NCBI RefSeq assembly: GCF_008033385.1
Contig: NZ_VOGY01000004.1
Span: 1 to 64,000, forward strand
Length of the DNA: 64,000 nt
Direction of reading: 5' to 3'
From: Algibacter pacificus
Lineage (GTDB): Bacteria > Bacteroidota > Bacteroidia > Flavobacteriales > Flavobacteriaceae
The notes under the pieces are model-generated. The model ran no database searches, had not been told where the DNA came from, and saw only the letters and a program-made list of their open reading frames with translations. Within the stretch, counting starts at the first letter, position 1. Each line of letters starts with the position of its first letter. A program made the translations under genes and the position numbers. Below, in pieces: positions 44,990 through 53,958 of the stretch.

Positions 44990-45370
44990 ATGAAAAAAAT
45001 AATAACAACAACCGATGCTCCTGCTCCAATTGGGCCTTACAACCAAGCTGTTTTAACAGGAAACACATTATATACCTCTGGACAAATCGCTATAAACCCT
45101 AAAACAGGCGATTTAATTTTAGATAATATTAAAACTGAAACCACACAGGTTATGCACAACATAAAAGCCGTTTTAAAAGCCGCAGATATGACTTTTGAAA
45201 ATGTAATTAAATCCACTATTTTTATTAGTAACATGGATGATTTTGGTACTATTAATGAAGTTTACGGAAGCTTTTTTAACGATGCCACTGCCCCAGCCCG
45301 CGAAACCGTGCAAGTTGCCAAATTACCAAAAAATGTAAATGTTGAAATTAGTGTTATTGCTGTGAAATAA
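44990..45370 (+). CDS. ridA: RidA reactive enamine/imine deaminase
   Basis: 126 residues, standard RidA (YjgF/YER057c/UK114) length. It hydrolyses 2-aminoacrylate and related enamines formed by PLP enzymes. Family motifs: TTDAPAPIGPYNQAV, LYTSGQIAINP, the Arg-containing ATAPARETVQVAKLP and the end NVEISVIAVK. Monocistronic, 91 bases after lptD. Confidence 0.95.
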   Translation: MKKIITTTDAPAPIGPYNQAVLTGNTLYTSGQIAINPKTGDLILDNIKTETTQVMHNIKAVLKAADMTFENVIKSTIFISNMDDFGTINEVYGSFFNDATAPARETVQVAKLPKNVNVEISVIAVK

Positions 45371-45886: not shown

Positions 45887-46927
45887 ATGCGCATAGAAAA
45901 CGAAATAAAATTAGGGTTTAAAGATGTTATGTTTCGTCCAAAACGATCCACTTTAAGAAGCCGATCAGAAGTTAGCTTAAACCGTGAATTCAAATTTTTA
46001 CACAGTACAAAAATCTGGCAAGGCGTTCCCATAATGGCTGCTAATATGGATACCGTTGGCACGTTCGAAATGGCGAAAGCCCTAGCTAACAAAGGTCTTT
46101 TTTCGGCAATTCATAAACATTATACTTTAACCGAATGGGAAGATTTTTTAGCTTCAATTTCAAAAAACGACTTAAATCATATAGCTGTTAGCACGGGTAT
46201 TGGCGAGCAAGATTCGGAGAAATTAGCTCAAATTCTCAAACTAAATCCAAACCTAAATTTTATTTGTATTGATGTTGCCAATGGATATTCGGAATATTTT
46301 GCTGAATTTGTAAAAAGCACAAGACAACAATATCCCGATAAAGTAATTATTGCTGGAAATGTAGTTACCGGAGAAATGGTTGAAGAACTATTGCTCTCTG
46401 GAGCCGACATTATTAAAGTAGGAATAGGCCCAGGCTCTGTATGCACAACCCGAGTAAAAACAGGTGTTGGTTACCCACAACTTTCAGCCATTATAGAATG
46501 TGCCGATGCGGCTCATGGTTTAGGCGGGCATATTATTAGTGATGGTGGTTGCACAACACCTGGCGATATCGCTAAAGCTTTTGGAGCTGGTGCCGATTTT
46601 GTTATGCTTGGTGGTATGCTAGCTGGCCACAACGAGAGTGGTGGCGAACTCATAGAAAAACATGGTAAACCATACCGTAAATTTTATGGCATGAGCTCCT
46701 CTACAGCCATGGAAAAACATGTGGGAGGCGTGGCAGAATATAGAGCTAGCGAAGGCAAAACTGTAGAAGTACCATATAGAGGCCCCGTAGAAAACACGCT
46801 GCAAGATATTCTAGGCGGTTTACGAAGTACTTGTACTTATGTTGGAGCATCCCGATTAAAAGAACTCACTAAACGCACTACTTTTATTCGAGTTAATGAG
46901 CAAGAAAATAGGTTTTATAACCAGTAA
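45887..46927 (+). CDS. guaC: GMP reductase
   Basis: 346 residues, same length class as E. coli GuaC. It reduces GMP to IMP and ammonia with NADPH, linking guanine to adenine nucleotide salvage. Family motifs: [16 protein letters not shown], the catalytic loop [39 protein letters not shown] and [13 protein letters not shown]. The absence of CBS domains and the short length separate it from IMP dehydrogenase. Monocistronic. Confidence 0.95.
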
Positions 46928-47158
46928 AAACGGCCATAACCTCATTAATCACAAATTTTAGTGGTTATCAAAAAAAAAATAAACAATCACTAAATTCATC
47001 AAATTATCATTTTTAATCAATATTATGTTTTAATGTTTTAATAGTTTAACTAATTCCCTCAGTTTTATTCAAAACCACTATTTTACGTGGAAAATTAGTG
47101 TATTTTTATAAGCATCTTTTTTCTTTCAAATTCATTAAAAAATTAAACAACAAAATTT

Positions 47159-50100
47159 ATGGCGTTAAAAATTGTAATCTCACACAAAACAAAATACAAA
47201 TATGATAGACCTATTAATCTATCGCCACATATTTTCAGATTACGCCCTGCTCCTCACAGCAGAACGCCAATTGAAGCTTATTCAATAAAAATTAAACCGG
47301 AAAACAACTTTTTTAACTGGCAACAAGATGCCTTTGGAAATTATTTAGCCCGATTAATTTTTCCTGAAAAAACAACCGAACTATCTGTTGAAGTTGAAAT
47401 TATAGCCGATTTAAAAACCATAAATCCATTCGATTTTTTTGTTGAAGAATCTGCCGAGGAATTTCCTTTTGAATATAGTGATACCATAAAAAAAGAGCTA
47501 TTAACTTATTTGGAAATCACAGATGATGGCCCACTAATAAAAGAGTTTATTAAAACTATAGATTATACGCCTAGAAAATCTATATACTTTTTAATTGATA
47601 TTAATAAAAAAATATACGAATACTTAAGCTATAACATCCGTCTCGATCCTGGTGTGCAAACTTGCGAAGAATCTCTTTCTCAAAGAAATGGATCATGCCG
47701 TGATTATGCATGGTTGTTTGTTCAAGTTTTAAGACATTTAGGTTTTGGAGCACGATTTGTTTCGGGATATTTAGTTCAATTAAAATCTGACGAAAAATCA
47801 TTGGATGGCCCTTCTGGTCCCGAAGAAGATTTTACAGATTTACACGCTTGGGCAGAAGTCTATTTACCTGGAGCTGGATGGATTGGTTTCGATGCAACCT
47901 CTGGATTATTAGCCGGAGAAGGTCATATTCCATTAGCTTGTACGCCTTCATTTGAAAGTGCGGCACCAGTAACAGGAATGTCTGATGTTTGTGAAACCGA
48001 ATTTGAATTTGAAAACTCGGTAACCCGAATTTTCGAATCGCCTCGTGTTACAAAACCATACACCGAAAAGCAATGGAACGACATATACAAACTTGGTTTT
48101 AAAGTTGAAAAAGAACTTCAAAAAGGAGATGTTCGATTAACTATGGGAGGCGAACCTACCTTTGTTTCTATAGATGATATGGAAGCTCCAGAATGGAATA
48201 CCGATGCCGATGGGCCACATAAAAGACAACTAGCAGACGACCTTACTAAACGCTTGTTTTATAAGTTTGCAAAAGGCGGTTTTTTACACCGTGCACAAGG
48301 AAAATGGTATCCCGGCGAACCTTTACCACGTTGGGGAACGGAGCTTTGCTGGCGTAAAGATGGTCGCGTAATTTGGCATAATGAAAAATTATTATCAACC
48401 TTTGCTGATAATAAAATTGTACCTGAAAACGCCGATAAATTATTTTTAGAAACCCTAACTCAGTATTTAGGTGTTACCAATAAAACCATAACGCCTGCTT
48501 TTGAAGATGCCTTTTATTTCCTTTGGGAAGAAGGTAATTTACCAACAGATATAGACCCTAAAACCGATAAAGACGGCTCGTTAATTCAGAAAAAATTAGG
48601 CGAAATTTTAGAACAAGGCACCTCTAAAGTCGTTGGGTATTTAATGCCTTTAAACAATAGTTTTGGGCAATGGCATACTTGTCAATGGCAATTTAGACGT
48701 AACCATTTGTTTTTAACCCCTGGAAATTCGCCAGTTGGTTTACGTTTGCCTTTGTCATCATTAGTTCATAAATCGGAATATGAAGAATTTCCAAAATTCG
48801 AACCCGATCAATTTACCAAACGAGGTAGGTTTCCAAGTTATAAAAAAATTGCAACCAATAGATACACGGCTTTTACTAATGGAGAACTTGAAAGTCCGAA
48901 AACCAATTATTTTATTAGAACCGCACTTTGTGCCGAAGTTAGAGATCAAAAACTATACTTATTTTTACCACCTTTAGACTGTGCCGAATTTTATTTAGAT
49001 CTACTCGCATCTATTGAAGCTACCGCAAAAGCCTTAAATATTCCGGTAATTTTAGAGGGTTACGCGGCTCCAAAAGACAACCGTTTAGAATCTCTAAAAA
49101 TCACACCAGATCCAGGTGTTATTGAAATTAACGTACATCCTGCAAAAAACTGGGACGAGCTTACAAAAAACACCTTTACCCTTTATGAAGAAGCCAAACA
49201 ATCCCGACTTGGTACCGAAAAGTTTATGCTCGACGGAAAACATACAGGAACCGGTGGTGGAAATCACGTAACATTAGGAGGTTTAACACCTGCTGATAGT
49301 CCGTTATTACGTAAACCAAGTTTATTACGAAGTTTATTGACGTTTTGGCAACATCATCCAGGTTTATCTTATTTATTCTCAGGCTCTTTTATTGGAGCCA
49401 CTAGTCAGGCGCCAAGAATAGATGAAGCCCGTATGGAAAACCTATACGAACTTGAAATTGCCTTTAGCCAAATACCAAAAGACGGCGATGTTCCTTTCTG
49501 GTTAACCGATAGATTGTTCAGACATTTATTAACCGATTTAACAGGAAATACACACCGTGCCGAGTTTTGTATCGATAAACTATATTCCCCAGATTCATCT
49601 TCGGGGCGTTTAGGAATTTTAGAGCTTCGGGCTTTCGATATGCCACCACATCCACAAATGAGTTTAATGCAAAACCTATTAGTACGTACTTTAGTGGCTT
49701 GGTTTTGGAAAAAACCATACGAGCACGATTTAGTCCGTTGGGGAACCGAATTACATGATAAATTTTTAATAGAACATTTTGTTAGAGAAGATATTAAAGA
49801 TATTGTAACATCATTAAATAAAGCTGGATACCGTTTTAAAGAAGAATGGTTTAATCCATTTTTCGAATTTAGATTTCCACTGCATGGTATGGTTACAATA
49901 AACAATATTCATATTGAACTTCGTGCGGCTATCGAACCTTGGAATGTTTTAGGTGAAGAAATGACCGGAGGAGGAACAGCCCGATACGTCGATTCTTCTT
50001 TGGAACGAATCCAAATTAAAGTAACCAATTTTACAGAAGAAAGATATGTTGTAACTTGCAACGGTGTTAAAGTAAACTTAAAAGCTACTGCTGTAAAAGG

Positions 50101-50491
50101 TGAGTTTGTTGCCGGTATACGTTATAAAGCATGGGATCCTTATTCTGCACTACACCCAACAATTGGAGTAGATACACCGTTAGTTTTCGATATTGTTGAT
50201 ACGTGGAACAAACGTTCTATTGGTGGCTGTACGTATTTTGTATCGCACCCAGGAGGGCGTTCTTATGAAACCTATCCTGTAAATAGTTACGAGGCTGAAT
50301 CTAGACGCATTAGTCGTTTTTGGGAATCGGGACATACACAAGGAGACATTAATCCTACGCAAGAAACGATAATCGACGATGCTAATTCTAATATAACTGT
50401 ACAAAAGAAAGGCAGCTCTAAAAAGTTTAATTACAAGGAATTACCCGTTAACAACGAATTTCCGAACACCACAGATTTAAGAAAAAAGTAA
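47159..50491 (+). CDS. Transglutaminase-like protease/ligase fused to DUF2126
   Basis: 1,110 residues. N-terminal part: beta-rich transglutaminase N domain, then the core with catalytic C180 (GSCRDYAWL), H229 (LHAWAEVYL) and D245 (GFDATSG). From about residue 300 the large DUF2126 domain begins (RLTMGGEPTFVSIDD), seen as a glutamine-synthetase-like COOH-NH2 ligase in published comparative work on amidoligase clusters. First gene of a three-gene operon, 12 bases before the ATP-grasp gene. It may form or remodel peptide bonds in an unknown product; no substrate is known. Confidence 0.85.
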   Translation: MALKIVISHKTKYKYDRPINLSPHIFRLRPAPHSRTPIEAYSIKIKPENNFFNWQQDAFGNYLARLIFPEKTTELSVEVEIIADLKTINPFDFFVEESAEEFPFEYSDTIKKELLTYLEITDDGPLIKEFIKTIDYTPRKSIYFLIDINKKIYEYLSYNIRLDPGVQTCEESLSQRNGSCRDYAWLFVQVLRHLGFGARFVSGYLVQLKSDEKSLDGPSGPEEDFTDLHAWAEVYLPGAGWIGFDATSGLLAGEGHIPLACTPSFESAAPVTGMSDVCETEFEFENSVTRIFESPRVTKPYTEKQWNDIYKLGFKVEKELQKGDVRLTMGGEPTFVSIDDMEAPEWNTDADGPHKRQLADDLTKRLFYKFAKGGFLHRAQGKWYPGEPLPRWGTELCWRKDGRVIWHNEKLLSTFADNKIVPENADKLFLETLTQYLGVTNKTITPAFEDAFYFLWEEGNLPTDIDPKTDKDGSLIQKKLGEILEQGTSKVVGYLMPLNNSFGQWHTCQWQFRRNHLFLTPGNSPVGLRLPLSSLVHKSEYEEFPKFEPDQFTKRGRFPSYKKIATNRYTAFTNGELESPKTNYFIRTALCAEVRDQKLYLFLPPLDCAEFYLDLLASIEATAKALNIPVILEGYAAPKDNRLESLKITPDPGVIEINVHPAKNWDELTKNTFTLYEEAKQSRLGTEKFMLDGKHTGTGGGNHVTLGGLTPADSPLLRKPSLLRSLLTFWQHHPGLSYLFSGSFIGATSQAPRIDEARMENLYELEIAFSQIPKDGDVPFWLTDRLFRHLLTDLTGNTHRAEFCIDKLYSPDSSSGRLGILELRAFDMPPHPQMSLMQNLLVRTLVAWFWKKPYEHDLVRWGTELHDKFLIEHFVREDIKDIVTSLNKAGYRFKEEWFNPFFEFRFPLHGMVTINNIHIELRAAIEPWNVLGEEMTGGGTARYVDSSLERIQIKVTNFTEERYVVTCNGVKVNLKATAVKGEFVAGIRYKAWDPYSALHPTIGVDTPLVFDIVDTWNKRSIGGCTYFVSHPGGRSYETYPVNSYEAESRRISRFWESGHTQGDINPTQETIIDDANSNITVQKKGSSKKFNYKELPVNNEFPNTTDLRKK

Positions 50492-50503
50492 TTAAAACAT
50501 TAA

Positions 50504-53065
50504 ATGACTATAGATTTAAATACGTTATTTCAAAATTATTTTACCAATCATAAAAATTATGATGAAGTATTAAAATCTAATATGGATATTAACCCAGAAT
50601 GGGCTAATTTACTATCCAATTTAATAGAAATAGGTCCAAAAGAATTAGTTTCTAGACAAACAGAAATTGATTGGCTAATGGATGAAAACGGCGTAACTTA
50701 CAATGTTTATAACGATCCCAAGGGCTTACATCGCGCTTGGGATTTAAGCATTGTTCCTTTTTTAATTCACGAGAAAGAATGGCAGCAAACCATTGAAAAA
50801 GGGTTAAAACAACGTGCCGAATTGCTCAATTTAATTTTAAAAGACATCTATGGCAAACGGGAACTTATTAAAAATGGTATTGTTCCTCACGAAGTTTTAT
50901 TTGCACACCGTGGTTTTTTACGTCAATGCGATCAAATAAACTACAACACCACTAAAAACCTATTAGTCCACGCTACAGATTTAGCTCGTGGCCCAGACGG
51001 CCGTATGTGGGTGGTTAACGATAGAACGCAAGCCCCTTCTGGCCTTGGTTATGCTTTAGAAAATAGATTTGCCATCACCAAAGCGGCACCAGGTTTGTTT
51101 AACGGCATTCACGTAAAACAATCGAGCGATTTTTTTCAAGATTATAACCAAATGCTCATTGATGCTGCACCAAAAGGTATTGATAATCCAAATATTGTTA
51201 TCATCACACCTGGTCCGCATAACGAAACCTATTTCGAACATGCTTACATGTCCTCCTTTCTTGGCTATCCATTAGTTAAAGGAAATGATTTAGTGGTTAG
51301 AAACGGAAGAGTTTGGATGAAATCGTTAAAAGAATTAAAACCTATTCATGTTATTTTAAGACGTGTAGACGATATCTATATGGATCCTTTAGAACTTCGT
51401 GAAGATTCTTATTTAGGCGTAGCTGGGATTTTAGATGTTATTAGACAACAAAACGTAACTATTGTAAACCCAATAGGTAGCGGTGTTTTAGAAAACTCTG
51501 GACTTATTCCTTTTATGAATGCAATTTCTAAGTATTTTTTAAATGAAGAATTAATACTGCCTCAAATTGGATCTTGGTGGTGCGGACAAGAAAAAGAACG
51601 TAACCACGTTTTAAAAAATATTCAAAAATATGTTGTAAAACGTATTGATCGTTCGAATAGAGAAAGTATCTATTTCTGCGAATTTTTAAATGAAGATGAA
51701 ATAAATAAATTAAAAGATGAAATATTAGCAAATCCTTATCGATTTGTAGCTCAAGAAAAAATAAAATTCTCTACAGCTCCAGATTTTATTAATGGAAAAT
51801 TAGAGCCTAGAAAAATTATGTGCAGAACCTTTGCTGTTGCTAAAAAAGACAGTTATAGCATTATGCCAGGTGGATTAGTTCGTGTAGCCGCAGAACGTGA
51901 AAATTTAAGAGTCTCAAACCAAAGAGGTGGTGTAAGTAAAGATTTTTGGATTATTAGTGATGAACCTCAAAATCATTTCAACAACTACTCTTGGGATAGC
52001 ACTTTTAGAAATCCGGTTTCAGACATTAACGATTTACCCAGCCATACGGCAGAAAATTTATTCTGGTCTGGTCGCTATTTAGGACGAGCATTAATCATCT
52101 CACGTTTATTGCGTATGTGTTTAAATAGAATGCAAAGTTCACAATACCATAAAAGCAAAGCCCCTTCAGAGAGTTTACATATCATTTTCGAAGCCATCAC
52201 AAGTATTACCCATACATTCCCTGGTTTTGTTGGTGAAGGAAAAGAAAAAATCTTTGAAAACGCTTTAAAAGAACTAAACTCCATTATTTTAGATGATACG
52301 AAAATGGGGTCCTTAGCACAAACCTTAGGTAGTTTTACCAATTCATACTATACCCTAAGAAACTTATGGTCTAAAGATATGTGGCGCGTTTTTGACGGTA
52401 TAAAAAAATTATGGGACAAACATGATAAAACCAAAGAATATTCGGTGTCATCCTTACTTAAATTACTCGATAGCACCGTAACACGACTCATTGCTTTTAT
52501 GGGGCTAATAGAGGAAAGTATTCTTGTAGATCAAGGTTTACTACTGTACTTTATTGGTATGCAAACGGAACAAGCTAGCTTAACCATAGCTAAATCTAGA
52601 GCCTTAATTGTAGCAAATTATGATGACGATTTAGAATATGAAATGTTAGAAGCCTTGCTCTCTAGTCATGAAAGTTTAAATATTTACCGCTATAGCTACC
52701 GTTCGTATTTAAGTGTTGAAAATGTTATAAAACTTGTTTTACTCAACGATAAATACAGCCGTTCGCTAACCTATCAGCTTAACCGTATTTTAAAAGATAT
52801 AGGTAAACTACCTATTCCAAAAGGTGCTGAAAACAATTCTGAATGTTTCAATTTAATTAATAAAGCCACAGAGCTTATTTCAAATGCTAAAATAGAAGAT
52901 TTATTAGAATTGGATGAAAGTGAAGCTATTAGAATTCATTTAGACGCTATGCTTGAAGAGCTAAGCGACCTATTACATAAAATATCTCTATCCATTTCCG
53001 ACACGTATTTTAATCACTCTTATCAACAAAGTCAATTGGTTAATCAAAACTTCCCACTACAATAA
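50504..53065 (+). CDS. Circularly permuted ATP-grasp and alpha-E domain protein
   Basis: 853 residues. Residues about 1-480 form the circularly permuted ATP-grasp (DUF404/DUF407 type) with HATDLARGPDGRMWVVNDRT, APSGLGYALENR and KPIHVILRRVDDIYMDP. About 520-840 is the mostly helical alpha-E (DUF403) domain (SHTAENLFWSGRYLGRALII). ATP-grasp enzymes activate a carboxylate as acyl phosphate for amide formation. Its stop overlaps the next start by one base (TAATG), so the cluster is translated as a unit. Confidence 0.88.
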   Translation: MTIDLNTLFQNYFTNHKNYDEVLKSNMDINPEWANLLSNLIEIGPKELVSRQTEIDWLMDENGVTYNVYNDPKGLHRAWDLSIVPFLIHEKEWQQTIEKGLKQRAELLNLILKDIYGKRELIKNGIVPHEVLFAHRGFLRQCDQINYNTTKNLLVHATDLARGPDGRMWVVNDRTQAPSGLGYALENRFAITKAAPGLFNGIHVKQSSDFFQDYNQMLIDAAPKGIDNPNIVIITPGPHNETYFEHAYMSSFLGYPLVKGNDLVVRNGRVWMKSLKELKPIHVILRRVDDIYMDPLELREDSYLGVAGILDVIRQQNVTIVNPIGSGVLENSGLIPFMNAISKYFLNEELILPQIGSWWCGQEKERNHVLKNIQKYVVKRIDRSNRESIYFCEFLNEDEINKLKDEILANPYRFVAQEKIKFSTAPDFINGKLEPRKIMCRTFAVAKKDSYSIMPGGLVRVAAERENLRVSNQRGGVSKDFWIISDEPQNHFNNYSWDSTFRNPVSDINDLPSHTAENLFWSGRYLGRALIISRLLRMCLNRMQSSQYHKSKAPSESLHIIFEAITSITHTFPGFVGEGKEKIFENALKELNSIILDDTKMGSLAQTLGSFTNSYYTLRNLWSKDMWRVFDGIKKLWDKHDKTKEYSVSSLLKLLDSTVTRLIAFMGLIEESILVDQGLLLYFIGMQTEQASLTIAKSRALIVANYDDDLEYEMLEALLSSHESLNIYRYSYRSYLSVENVIKLVLLNDKYSRSLTYQLNRILKDIGKLPIPKGAENNSECFNLINKATELISNAKIEDLLELDESEAIRIHLDAMLEELSDLLHKISLSISDTYFNHSYQQSQLVNQNFPLQ

Positions 53066-53958
53066 TGGTTTTTCAATTATCACATACTACGAGCTACAAA
53101 TATGGAAATGGCGTAACATTTTGCCATAACATAGCAACCCTAAAACCTAGAGATTTTTTAGGGCAAACCATTTTAAGTTACGAATTAGAAATAAGTCCGA
53201 AACCTACTGAAATATCAGAACGTGTAGACTTTTTTGGAAATACCATTACAAGATTTTCCATTCAGCAATACCATAAAGAATTAAAAGTTATCGCTAAAAG
53301 CAAAGTGCTTCGCGATTATACTTTAGCTCCTGATATACATAAATCCGCTATTGGAATGGCTATAACGCTAGAGGAAGCCAAAAAGGAATTAAAAGCTATA
53401 ACCCCTGAAATATTAGAAGTAAAACAGTTTGTTTTAGAATCGATATTAATTGCTAAAATTTCTAAAAACATCAGAGACTACGCCTTAGTTTCATTTAAGC
53501 CAGACCGTTCTATTTTCGAAGCAGCTTCGGAACTTATGCATCGCATTTTTACCGATTTTGAATTCAATCCTAATGCCACCAACGTAGCAACACCTATTTG
53601 CGAAGTTATGGAAAAGAAAAAAGGGGTTTGTCAAGATTTTGCTCAAATAGCCATAGCTTGTATTCGGTCTATAGGTTTACCAGCACGCTATGTAAGCGGG
53701 TATATTGAAACCTTACCGCCTCCAGGAAAAGAAAAACTAATTGGAACCGATGCTTCACATGCCTGGTTTTCATTATATATTCCTAAATTTGGCTGGGTAG
53801 ATTTTGACCCCACAAATGATCAAATCCCAAAAAACCAACACATTATTGTAGCCTATGGCCGCGATTATTACGATGTACCACCTCTTAAAGGCGTAATTTA
53901 TAGTTCGGGTGAAAACAAAATGAAAGTAGCCGTAGATATTAGGCCTGCGGTAGATTAA
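53065..53958 (+). CDS. Second transglutaminase-like protein of the amidoligase cluster
   Basis: 297 residues: transglutaminase N domain (1-100) and papain-like core with C189 (KKGVCQDFAQIA), H232 (ASHAWFSLY) and D248 (WVDFDPTND). All three catalytic residues are intact. It is shorter than the first transglutaminase and lacks DUF2126. Translationally coupled to the ATP-grasp gene. Its end overlaps the converging ABC gene by four bases. In similar clusters an Anbu-like peptidase may occur; none is here. Confidence 0.88.
   Translation: MVFQLSHTTSYKYGNGVTFCHNIATLKPRDFLGQTILSYELEISPKPTEISERVDFFGNTITRFSIQQYHKELKVIAKSKVLRDYTLAPDIHKSAIGMAITLEEAKKELKAITPEILEVKQFVLESILIAKISKNIRDYALVSFKPDRSIFEAASELMHRIFTDFEFNPNATNVATPICEVMEKKKGVCQDFAQIAIACIRSIGLPARYVSGYIETLPPPGKEKLIGTDASHAWFSLYIPKFGWVDFDPTNDQIPKNQHIIVAYGRDYYDVPPLKGVIYSSGENKMKVAVDIRPAVD

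Follow-up and report, generated by a model that had tools for sequence, protein, structure and literature searches.

Motif loss in a fused ATP-grasp/alpha-E protein of Algibacter pacificus and the proposed dependence of its transglutaminase–DUF2126 cluster on a second operon

The 64,000-nucleotide stretch of the Algibacter pacificus genome analysed here (contig NZ_VOGY01000004.1; hereafter the window) carries three consecutive forward-strand genes, which encode a transglutaminase fused to DUF2126, a circularly permuted ATP-grasp fused to an alpha-E domain, and a second transglutaminase-like protein. They appear to form one half, the dependent one, of a system spread over two operons, because the genomes bearing the fused ATP-grasp/alpha-E protein and those bearing DUF2126 coincide and all carry a stand-alone ATP-grasp as well. 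The system is real and conserved, and is of a kind already described; the points added here are the apparently dead ATP-grasp of the window, the intact copy elsewhere in the genome, the nested dependence of one gene set on the other, and the ordinary absence of the proteasome-related protein Anbu. It is the stand-alone ATP-grasp, rather than the window copy, that should be assayed.

The fused protein has lost the ATP-grasp motifs and is under selection

The fused protein (853 amino acids; 50504 to 53065, forward strand) joins an ATP-grasp-like domain (50756 to 51889) to an alpha-E domain (52034 to 53011), and matches the Pfam profiles CP_ATPgrasp_2 (475.9 bits) and Alpha-E (177.2 bits). In the numbering of the A. 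pacificus stand-alone ATP-grasp, the residues E169, N171, R173, D326, G380, G381, G383, D434 and N466 are present in all 73 unique stand-alone proteins compared from Bacteroidota, whereas E169, N171, R173, D326 and D434 are found in none of the 95 unique fused proteins from the same phylum, with N466 retained in one of them and G381 in two. The open reading frames (ORFs) compared were longer than 780 amino acids for the fused class and of 450–550 amino acids for the stand-alone class, the class being assigned by best BLAST match and uniqueness judged on residues 31–200; all 100 long ORFs were nearest to the fused query and 83 short ORFs to the stand-alone query, while the seven short ORFs nearest to the fused query come from loci L001 to L007 and are cut at the locus end. 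In the window protein, alignment places N172-D-R-T-Q176 (51017 to 51031) where the stand-alone proteins have E-D-N-x-R, N385-R-E-S388 (51656 to 51667) at the place of the glycine-rich loop GGYG, and M439 (51818 to 51820) at the place of the invariant Asp, D434. The lost E-D-N triplet resembles the E-x-N metal motif that D-Ala-D-Ala ligase and other ATP-grasp enzymes carry, and the NSSQ stretch of the stand-alone proteins is also replaced in the fused clade. An earlier note on this DNA had listed an ATP-grasp and an alpha-E domain among the parts of the cluster and had named loss of the ATP-grasp catalytic residues on alignment as what would speak against its reading; both domains are present, but that loss is what the alignment shows, and a working ATP-grasp is not confirmed.

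The replaced positions have a constancy of their own, N171 being an arginine in all 95 fused proteins, and the lysine at K374 is retained, together with several Arg and Asp positions, in 94–95 of the 95. Two comparisons within the genus, at dS values near 1 or higher, gave the fused gene ratios of nonsynonymous to synonymous substitution rates (dN/dS) of 0.084 and 0.089 and the neighbouring genes 0.039–0.054; the fused gene is under purifying selection and is not decaying. The idea that the window ATP-grasp is a decaying pseudogene was rejected on its open frame, its low dN/dS and these invariant residues. In a FastTree tree of 54 sequences, hand-picked from 95 plus 7 fused and 73 plus 4 stand-alone proteins, each class formed a clade of its own, the 27 fused proteins coming from four phyla and the 27 stand-alone ones from two, with supports of 0.94 and 1.0. 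The fused ATP-grasp/alpha-E protein of the window is, on these alignments, a conserved paralogue of the stand-alone pair and has lost the catalytic motifs.

The same loss is seen in plasmid records from Azospirillum, Enterobacter, Granulicella, Sinorhizobium, Caballeronia, Tsukamurella and Halomonas (Pseudomonadota, Acidobacteriota and Actinomycetota), where E169 and N171 are missing from seven of seven fused proteins, whereas the motifs are present in the four full-length stand-alone proteins encoded there; this count omits ORFs shorter than 400 amino acids, and hence a broken stand-alone ATP-grasp in Halomonas. In that record (L169:6702-11895) the stand-alone ATP-grasp and the transglutaminase–DUF2126 gene are apparently split into several frames, either by disruption or by sequencing error.

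The alpha-E domain is altered as well. The Glu of its ER motif, E17, is present in 70 of 70 stand-alone proteins versus six of 95 fused ones; for a second Arg, R169, the counts are 69 of 70 versus nine of 95 (numbering of the protein from locus L008; E17 and R18 carry identical numbers in the A. pacificus protein). In the window the Glu is replaced by Gly at residue 527, and the domain still reaches the Pfam score given above. Its model is all-helical, with a predicted local distance difference test (pLDDT) score of 84.4; Foldseek returned no match for it in the PDB at E ≤ 0.001, and the VIA rows, which reach a Z of 10.3 with a root-mean-square deviation (rmsd) above 6 to cytochrome bd chains, may for helical bundles reflect no more than a common arrangement. 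The Pfam description of PF14403 reportedly notes that inactive forms are often fused to alpha-E.

The intact copy lies in an unlinked core operon

A search of the A. pacificus genome with the PF14403 profile found a second gene at G000:C1:112856-113980, on a different contig from the window. There an ATP-grasp of 480 amino acids, an alpha-E protein of 306 and a transglutaminase of 331 are encoded consecutively, and this ATP-grasp keeps the E-x-N motif, the glycine-rich loop and the invariant Asp. By profile searches the genome holds in total two such ATP-grasps, two alpha-E domains, three Bact_transglu_N domains and one DUF2126; the assembly, in 56 contigs, has a completeness of 99.91%, so that a missed gene is unlikely. 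Synechococcus elongatus, searched as a control, matches DUF2126, PF14403 and Alpha-E. The three-gene cluster of the earlier note is real, but appears to make up just one half of the system; the other contig carries the intact ATP-grasp together with its alpha-E protein and the third transglutaminase.

Among 249 genomes of the Flavobacteriaceae, a sample of nearly one genome per genus, PF14403 was found in 65, of which 32, spanning 30 genera, have the fused form and in each case also a stand-alone form, and 33 have the stand-alone form only. DUF2126 occurs in 32 of the 249, and this set is identical to the fused-bearing one (Fisher P 1.6e-22 for the dependence of the fused protein and DUF2126 on the stand-alone ATP-grasp, a value that overstates independence among related genomes). 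In a sample of 296 genomes from the phylum, all 12 with DUF2126 have a stand-alone ATP-grasp, and the nine with a fused protein all have both DUF2126 and the stand-alone ATP-grasp; assumed counts of 113 to 121 stand-alone-bearing genomes among the 296 give Fisher P values of 6.6e-6 to 1.6e-5. The fused-bearing genomes with a stand-alone partner are thus 32 from the family and nine from the phylum sample, with two common to both. Since DUF2126, the fused form and Anbu occur in the sampled genomes only alongside the stand-alone ATP-grasp, the latter is the core of the system, and Anbu and the DUF2126/fused cassette are add-ons; the cassette goes with the core operon.

The two halves can also be found close together. 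Both ATP-grasp forms lie within 10 kb on one contig in ten of the 32 fused-bearing family genomes; two further sets of 20 regions were hand-chosen, partly for the closeness of the clusters, and do not serve for counting adjacency. A plasmid of Enterobacter roggenkampii carries five consecutive genes (L161:6147-15344), for the stand-alone ATP-grasp, alpha-E, transglutaminase–DUF2126, fused ATP-grasp/alpha-E and transglutaminase proteins, in a stretch with insertion sequence (IS) elements on either side, and a Caballeronia plasmid has the same five genes with one opposite-strand gene intervening. With the whole set in one place, these plasmids support the view that the window carries half of a system of five or six genes, and the complete set lying between IS elements on the E. 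roggenkampii plasmid suggests horizontal spread.

Gene layout, transglutaminase domains and neighbouring genes

The first gene of the window cluster (47159 to 50491, forward strand; 1110 amino acids) encodes a protein with Bact_transglu_N, Transglut_core and DUF2126 domains in Pfam. The Transglut_core match (residues 150–246; 47606 to 47896) holds the triad C180/H229/D245, and the DUF2126 match (47984 to 50482; 1265.6 bits) covers profile positions 1–826 of 826. Its nearest named relative among those listed is from Algibacter lectus, at 95% identity. The ATP-grasp/alpha-E fusion follows 12 bases later, and then, sharing one base with it in the stop/start sequence TAATG, the gene for the second transglutaminase-like protein (53065 to 53958, forward strand; 297 amino acids), which has Bact_transglu_N and Transglut_core domains and the triad C189/H232/D248. 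All three ORFs are intact and the Pfam architecture agrees with a cluster of the predicted peptide-amide type, so that the coupled genes and the cluster type named in the earlier note hold, as do its two intact triads, whose numbering is right: each is invariant in 96 of 96 unique relatives. DUF2126 is similarly constrained, with E332, E656, N658, H703, R817, E822 and R824 invariant in 96 of 96. Simple hydropathy gave no apparent signal peptide or membrane span in the three proteins, NCBIfam gave no match for them at E ≤ 0.01, and no Rfam family reached its gathering score in the window. Promoter-like and terminator-like sites are both fewer than their shuffle means (17 versus 26.7 and 2 versus 5.3).

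Of 13 transglutaminases of the stand-alone operon compared, 12 retain the catalytic Cys and His. In the remaining one, from a relative (genome G018; L041:11682-12536) both residues are lost.

Just upstream of the cluster lie genes for a RidA-type protein (44990 to 45370) and a protein of the inosine monophosphate (IMP) dehydrogenase/guanosine monophosphate (GMP) reductase family (45887 to 46927). Since neither belongs to a sequence group common to at least three genera among 18 chosen loci from 14 genera, their adjacency probably reflects chance and local synteny. In the table of one expression study of Pseudomonas putida, a putative endoribonuclease, PP2689, stands beside PP2685-2687 (PMC3325844). 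Over the same 18 loci, with the transglutaminases merged into one group, five sequence groups reach at least nine genera, all of them parts of the two operons, and the next most shared neighbour groups reach four genera.

The earlier note saw no obvious gene for a target peptide, and none emerged from 45 chosen loci: among ORFs of 22–99 amino acids within 3 kb (E ≤ 1e-4, recurrence in at least three loci), a scan that a fast-changing peptide would escape, only two groups recurred, in five and four loci, and neither is target-peptide-like. Both sit about 2–3 kb upstream of the cluster, the window member being antisense within the RidA gene.

Anbu and the nitrogen setting

The absence of Anbu from the window extends to the whole A. 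pacificus genome, where neither the PF00227 profile nor an Anbu protein used as query gave a match, as the earlier note had proposed to look. Its description of Anbu as a frequent partner does not hold in this phylum: Anbu occurs in three of the 249 family genomes and 21 of the 296 phylum genomes, each time with a stand-alone ATP-grasp. The absence of Anbu is the normal state in Flavobacteriaceae, where the protein is dispensable for keeping the system. The possibility that this absence is peculiar to the fused/DUF2126 cluster was rejected, Anbu being found in two of 32 fused-bearing versus one of 33 stand-alone-only family genomes (Fisher P 0.61). PF00227 is a poor marker for Anbu, matching 225 of the 296 phylum genomes in what are taken to be mostly HslV genes, and an Anbu motif written as a regular expression gave no match; the query gene was instead recognised by its place and start in loci L138, L139 and L140, and matches the Pfam Proteasome profile (27.7 bits).

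These loci come from three genomes that belong to a different family. Anbu comes after the ATP-grasp and alpha-E genes there, and the transglutaminase–DUF2126 gene is divergent. The stretches contain no separate transglutaminase, which the transglutaminase of the DUF2126 fusion may replace.

In published work on the Yersinia operon, Anbu had no peptidase activity in vitro and the ATP-grasp freed phosphate from ATP (PMC6376114). In P. putida, nitrogen limitation induces the core operon. On nitrate versus ammonium the log2 change is 4.44 (Anbu gene) and 3.99 (ATP-grasp gene) (PMC8050072); the other three core-operon genes rise 11- to 15-fold in the first data column of a further study (PMC7801951), and PP2685-2687 show 6.6- to 11.1-fold changes in the first column and 2.6- to 4.6-fold in the second of another (PMC3325844). 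A Burkholderia cenocepacia cluster that includes a large transglutaminase protein depends on NtrC, with values of -6.0 to -9.4 (PMC5491218), and in marine metagenomes the abundance of these domains is associated with urea metabolism (PMC3597751). A Bradyrhizobium paper tabulates a CP_ATPgrasp_1 gene along with RpoN-type motifs, an entry given no weight here. By analogy with these relatives, we infer that the pathway may serve growth under nitrogen shortage. Nitrogen limitation is the condition that switches on relatives. Taken with the choice of the copy to assay, the dispensability of Anbu and the link of the cassette to the core operon, this narrows a loose prediction to a few deletions and assays.

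Proposed mechanism and alternatives

On balance we think it somewhat probable that the window cluster supplies the dependent half of a cytosolic system, made up of two operons, that forms amide bonds. The stand-alone ATP-grasp of the unlinked operon and a DUF2126 of glutamine synthetase (GS) fold would each spend ATP through acyl-phosphate chemistry, a carboxylate would be joined to the amine of a peptide or peptide-like acceptor, and the papain-fold transglutaminase domains would cut or transfer the resulting amide. The fused protein would act as a scaffold or regulatory subunit, pairing with the live ATP-grasp/alpha-E proteins and coupling them to DUF2126. The steps of ATP use and of transglutaminase action are proposed because of the chemistry of the families, and the role of the fused protein as a non-catalytic partner because of its motif loss, its shared ancestry with the stand-alone form and their co-occurrence. 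Also in favour of the proposal are the release of phosphate from ATP by the Yersinia ATP-grasp, the nitrogen response of relatives and the five-gene sets on the two plasmids. In a bolder version, which we consider rather doubtful, the fused protein, with a single origin among the compared sequences, would be a dedicated pseudoenzyme: as a subunit docked on the live pair of ATP-grasp and alpha-E proteins, it would switch or channel that pair to the DUF2126 ligase, and a core ligase operon that acquired the cassette would gain a second product. If true, keeping an inactive copy of a ligase of two genes in this way would be a form of control new to ATP-grasp enzymes.

Several observations weigh against this two-operon amide-bond proposal. 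The ligase reaction and the pairing of fused with stand-alone proteins remain predictions for every member. DUF2126 has no sequence match to any solved GS-fold protein, and its AlphaFold2 model (47 sequences) is of middling confidence, with a mean pLDDT of 68.2 and a predicted template modelling score (pTM) of 0.71. Foldseek gave no PDB match to this model at E ≤ 0.001, its first rows above that threshold being a glutamine synthetase and 1tt4, whose deposited name is predicted glutathione synthase. Of the 50 VIA rows, 37, the leading ones among them, belong to glutamine synthetases and their close relatives, but VIA only re-examines Foldseek's own candidates, and the best row (Z 7.9, rmsd 4.3, 264 residues aligned; YbdK Z 5.5) falls under Z 8, where a match can mean merely a common arrangement. 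The rows for the C-terminal part (model residues about 646–770) are beta domains of isoamylase and other proteins. The GS-fold rows nonetheless speak for the proposal and agree with the published placement, without proving it alone: the transglutaminase-fused family is classed with the carboxylate-amine ligases, in the superfamily of PafA and GCS2 (PMC2588565).

Further points on the same side concern partnership and regulation. Three of the 12 DUF2126-bearing phylum genomes have a stand-alone ATP-grasp but lack the fused protein, which is therefore not required for DUF2126 everywhere; these three carry the stand-alone ATP-grasp, alpha-E and Anbu together. Seven of 25 plasmid records (Granulicella, two Caballeronia and four Sinorhizobium) have a single such place per record, as does the Tsukamurella record, with the stand-alone partner off that replicon; plasmid records were searched singly, apart from the rest of their genomes. 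The Yersinia study reports no specific interaction among the operon proteins (PMC6376114), and the P. putida Anbu gene is nearly unchanged in one data set, at 1.12 in the first column (PMC7801951). No sigma-54-like site with up to two mismatches lies in the 231 bases upstream of the window operon (46928 to 47158), and none was found just upstream of the second operon; the whole window holds 28 such sites versus 19.9 (standard deviation 4.4) expected, a number reached in six of 100 shuffles.

Alternatively, the product could be a peptide-like metabolite that diffuses, in the way of glutathionylspermidine synthetase/amidase, and the transglutaminase domains would be its amidases. The glutathionylspermidine synthetase of Escherichia coli likewise joins a papain-like amidase to a ligase, the only solved ATP-grasp relative found, 3N6X, is deposited as a putative glutathionylspermidine synthase, and the small-ORF scan of the 45 loci found no recurrent small target-peptide gene; the name of 3N6X, however, is an annotation rather than a tested activity, and no transporter or pathway gene recurs widely beside the clusters in the 18 loci, so that we regard a small-molecule product as possible while doubting it. 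In a literature search covering few subscription journals, no established reaction or substrate was found for the Anbu, ATP-grasp, alpha-E and transglutaminase set, as the earlier note had also held of the substrate.

Attachment of glutamyl-type groups or peptides to proteins in the manner of PafA and Pup, marking or sparing them in nitrogen shortage until Anbu removes the mark, is a different proposal that seems to us unlikely. It draws on the place of the transglutaminase-fused family among the carboxylate-amine ligases with PafA and GCS2 (PMC2588565), on the adjacency of Anbu, a relative of the proteasome beta subunit, to the ATP-grasp in other genomes, and on the nitrogen-limitation induction in P. 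putida and NtrC dependence in B. cenocepacia cited above. Anbu is, however, missing from 30 of the 32 fused/DUF2126 family genomes and lacked peptidase activity in vitro (PMC6376114), and no Pup-like small gene lies near the clusters in the 45 loci, nor in the neighbourhoods covered in the literature (PMC2588565). That the window ATP-grasp is itself the working ligase of the three-gene cluster is highly improbable: its full-length CP_ATPgrasp_2 match and the Lys, Arg and Asp positions kept in the fused proteins speak for a ligase, but the fused clade has other residues at the E-x-N motif, the glycine loop, the NSSQ stretch and the position of the invariant Asp, and an intact paralogue is present in every fused-bearing whole genome sampled.

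Comparison with known systems

Iyer et al. in 2009 reportedly described a peptide-amide system with ATP-grasp, alpha-E and transglutaminase partners. Later papers name the same partners that are found here (e.g. PMC6376114), and the system of Iyer, Aravind et al. (2008) has the same fusion of a transglutaminase to a GS-superfamily ligase as the window (PMC2588565). Compared with these descriptions, the A. pacificus set is split over two unlinked operons in a genome without Anbu. The Anbu operon of Yersinia bercovieri and P. putida (PP_2685-2688) has the order ATP-grasp, alpha-E, transglutaminase, which is that of the unlinked A. pacificus operon, the differences being that A. pacificus lacks Anbu and has a second, DUF2126-bearing operon. 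3N6X, the only solved relative found for either ATP-grasp, carries the stand-alone motifs and is intact, in contrast to the degenerate window protein.

The Pup-proteasome system offers a looser parallel, set in nutrient shortage. Its ligase PafA belongs to the GS superfamily (PMC2588565), whereas the A. pacificus genome has no PF00227 proteasome-type gene and no Pup-like gene near the clusters, PafA itself not having been searched for. For DUF2126 the putative structural likeness is to the glutamine synthetase/YbdK fold, which supplies the leading VIA rows for its model; DUF2126 differs from it in being larger and in carrying an extra C-terminal part.

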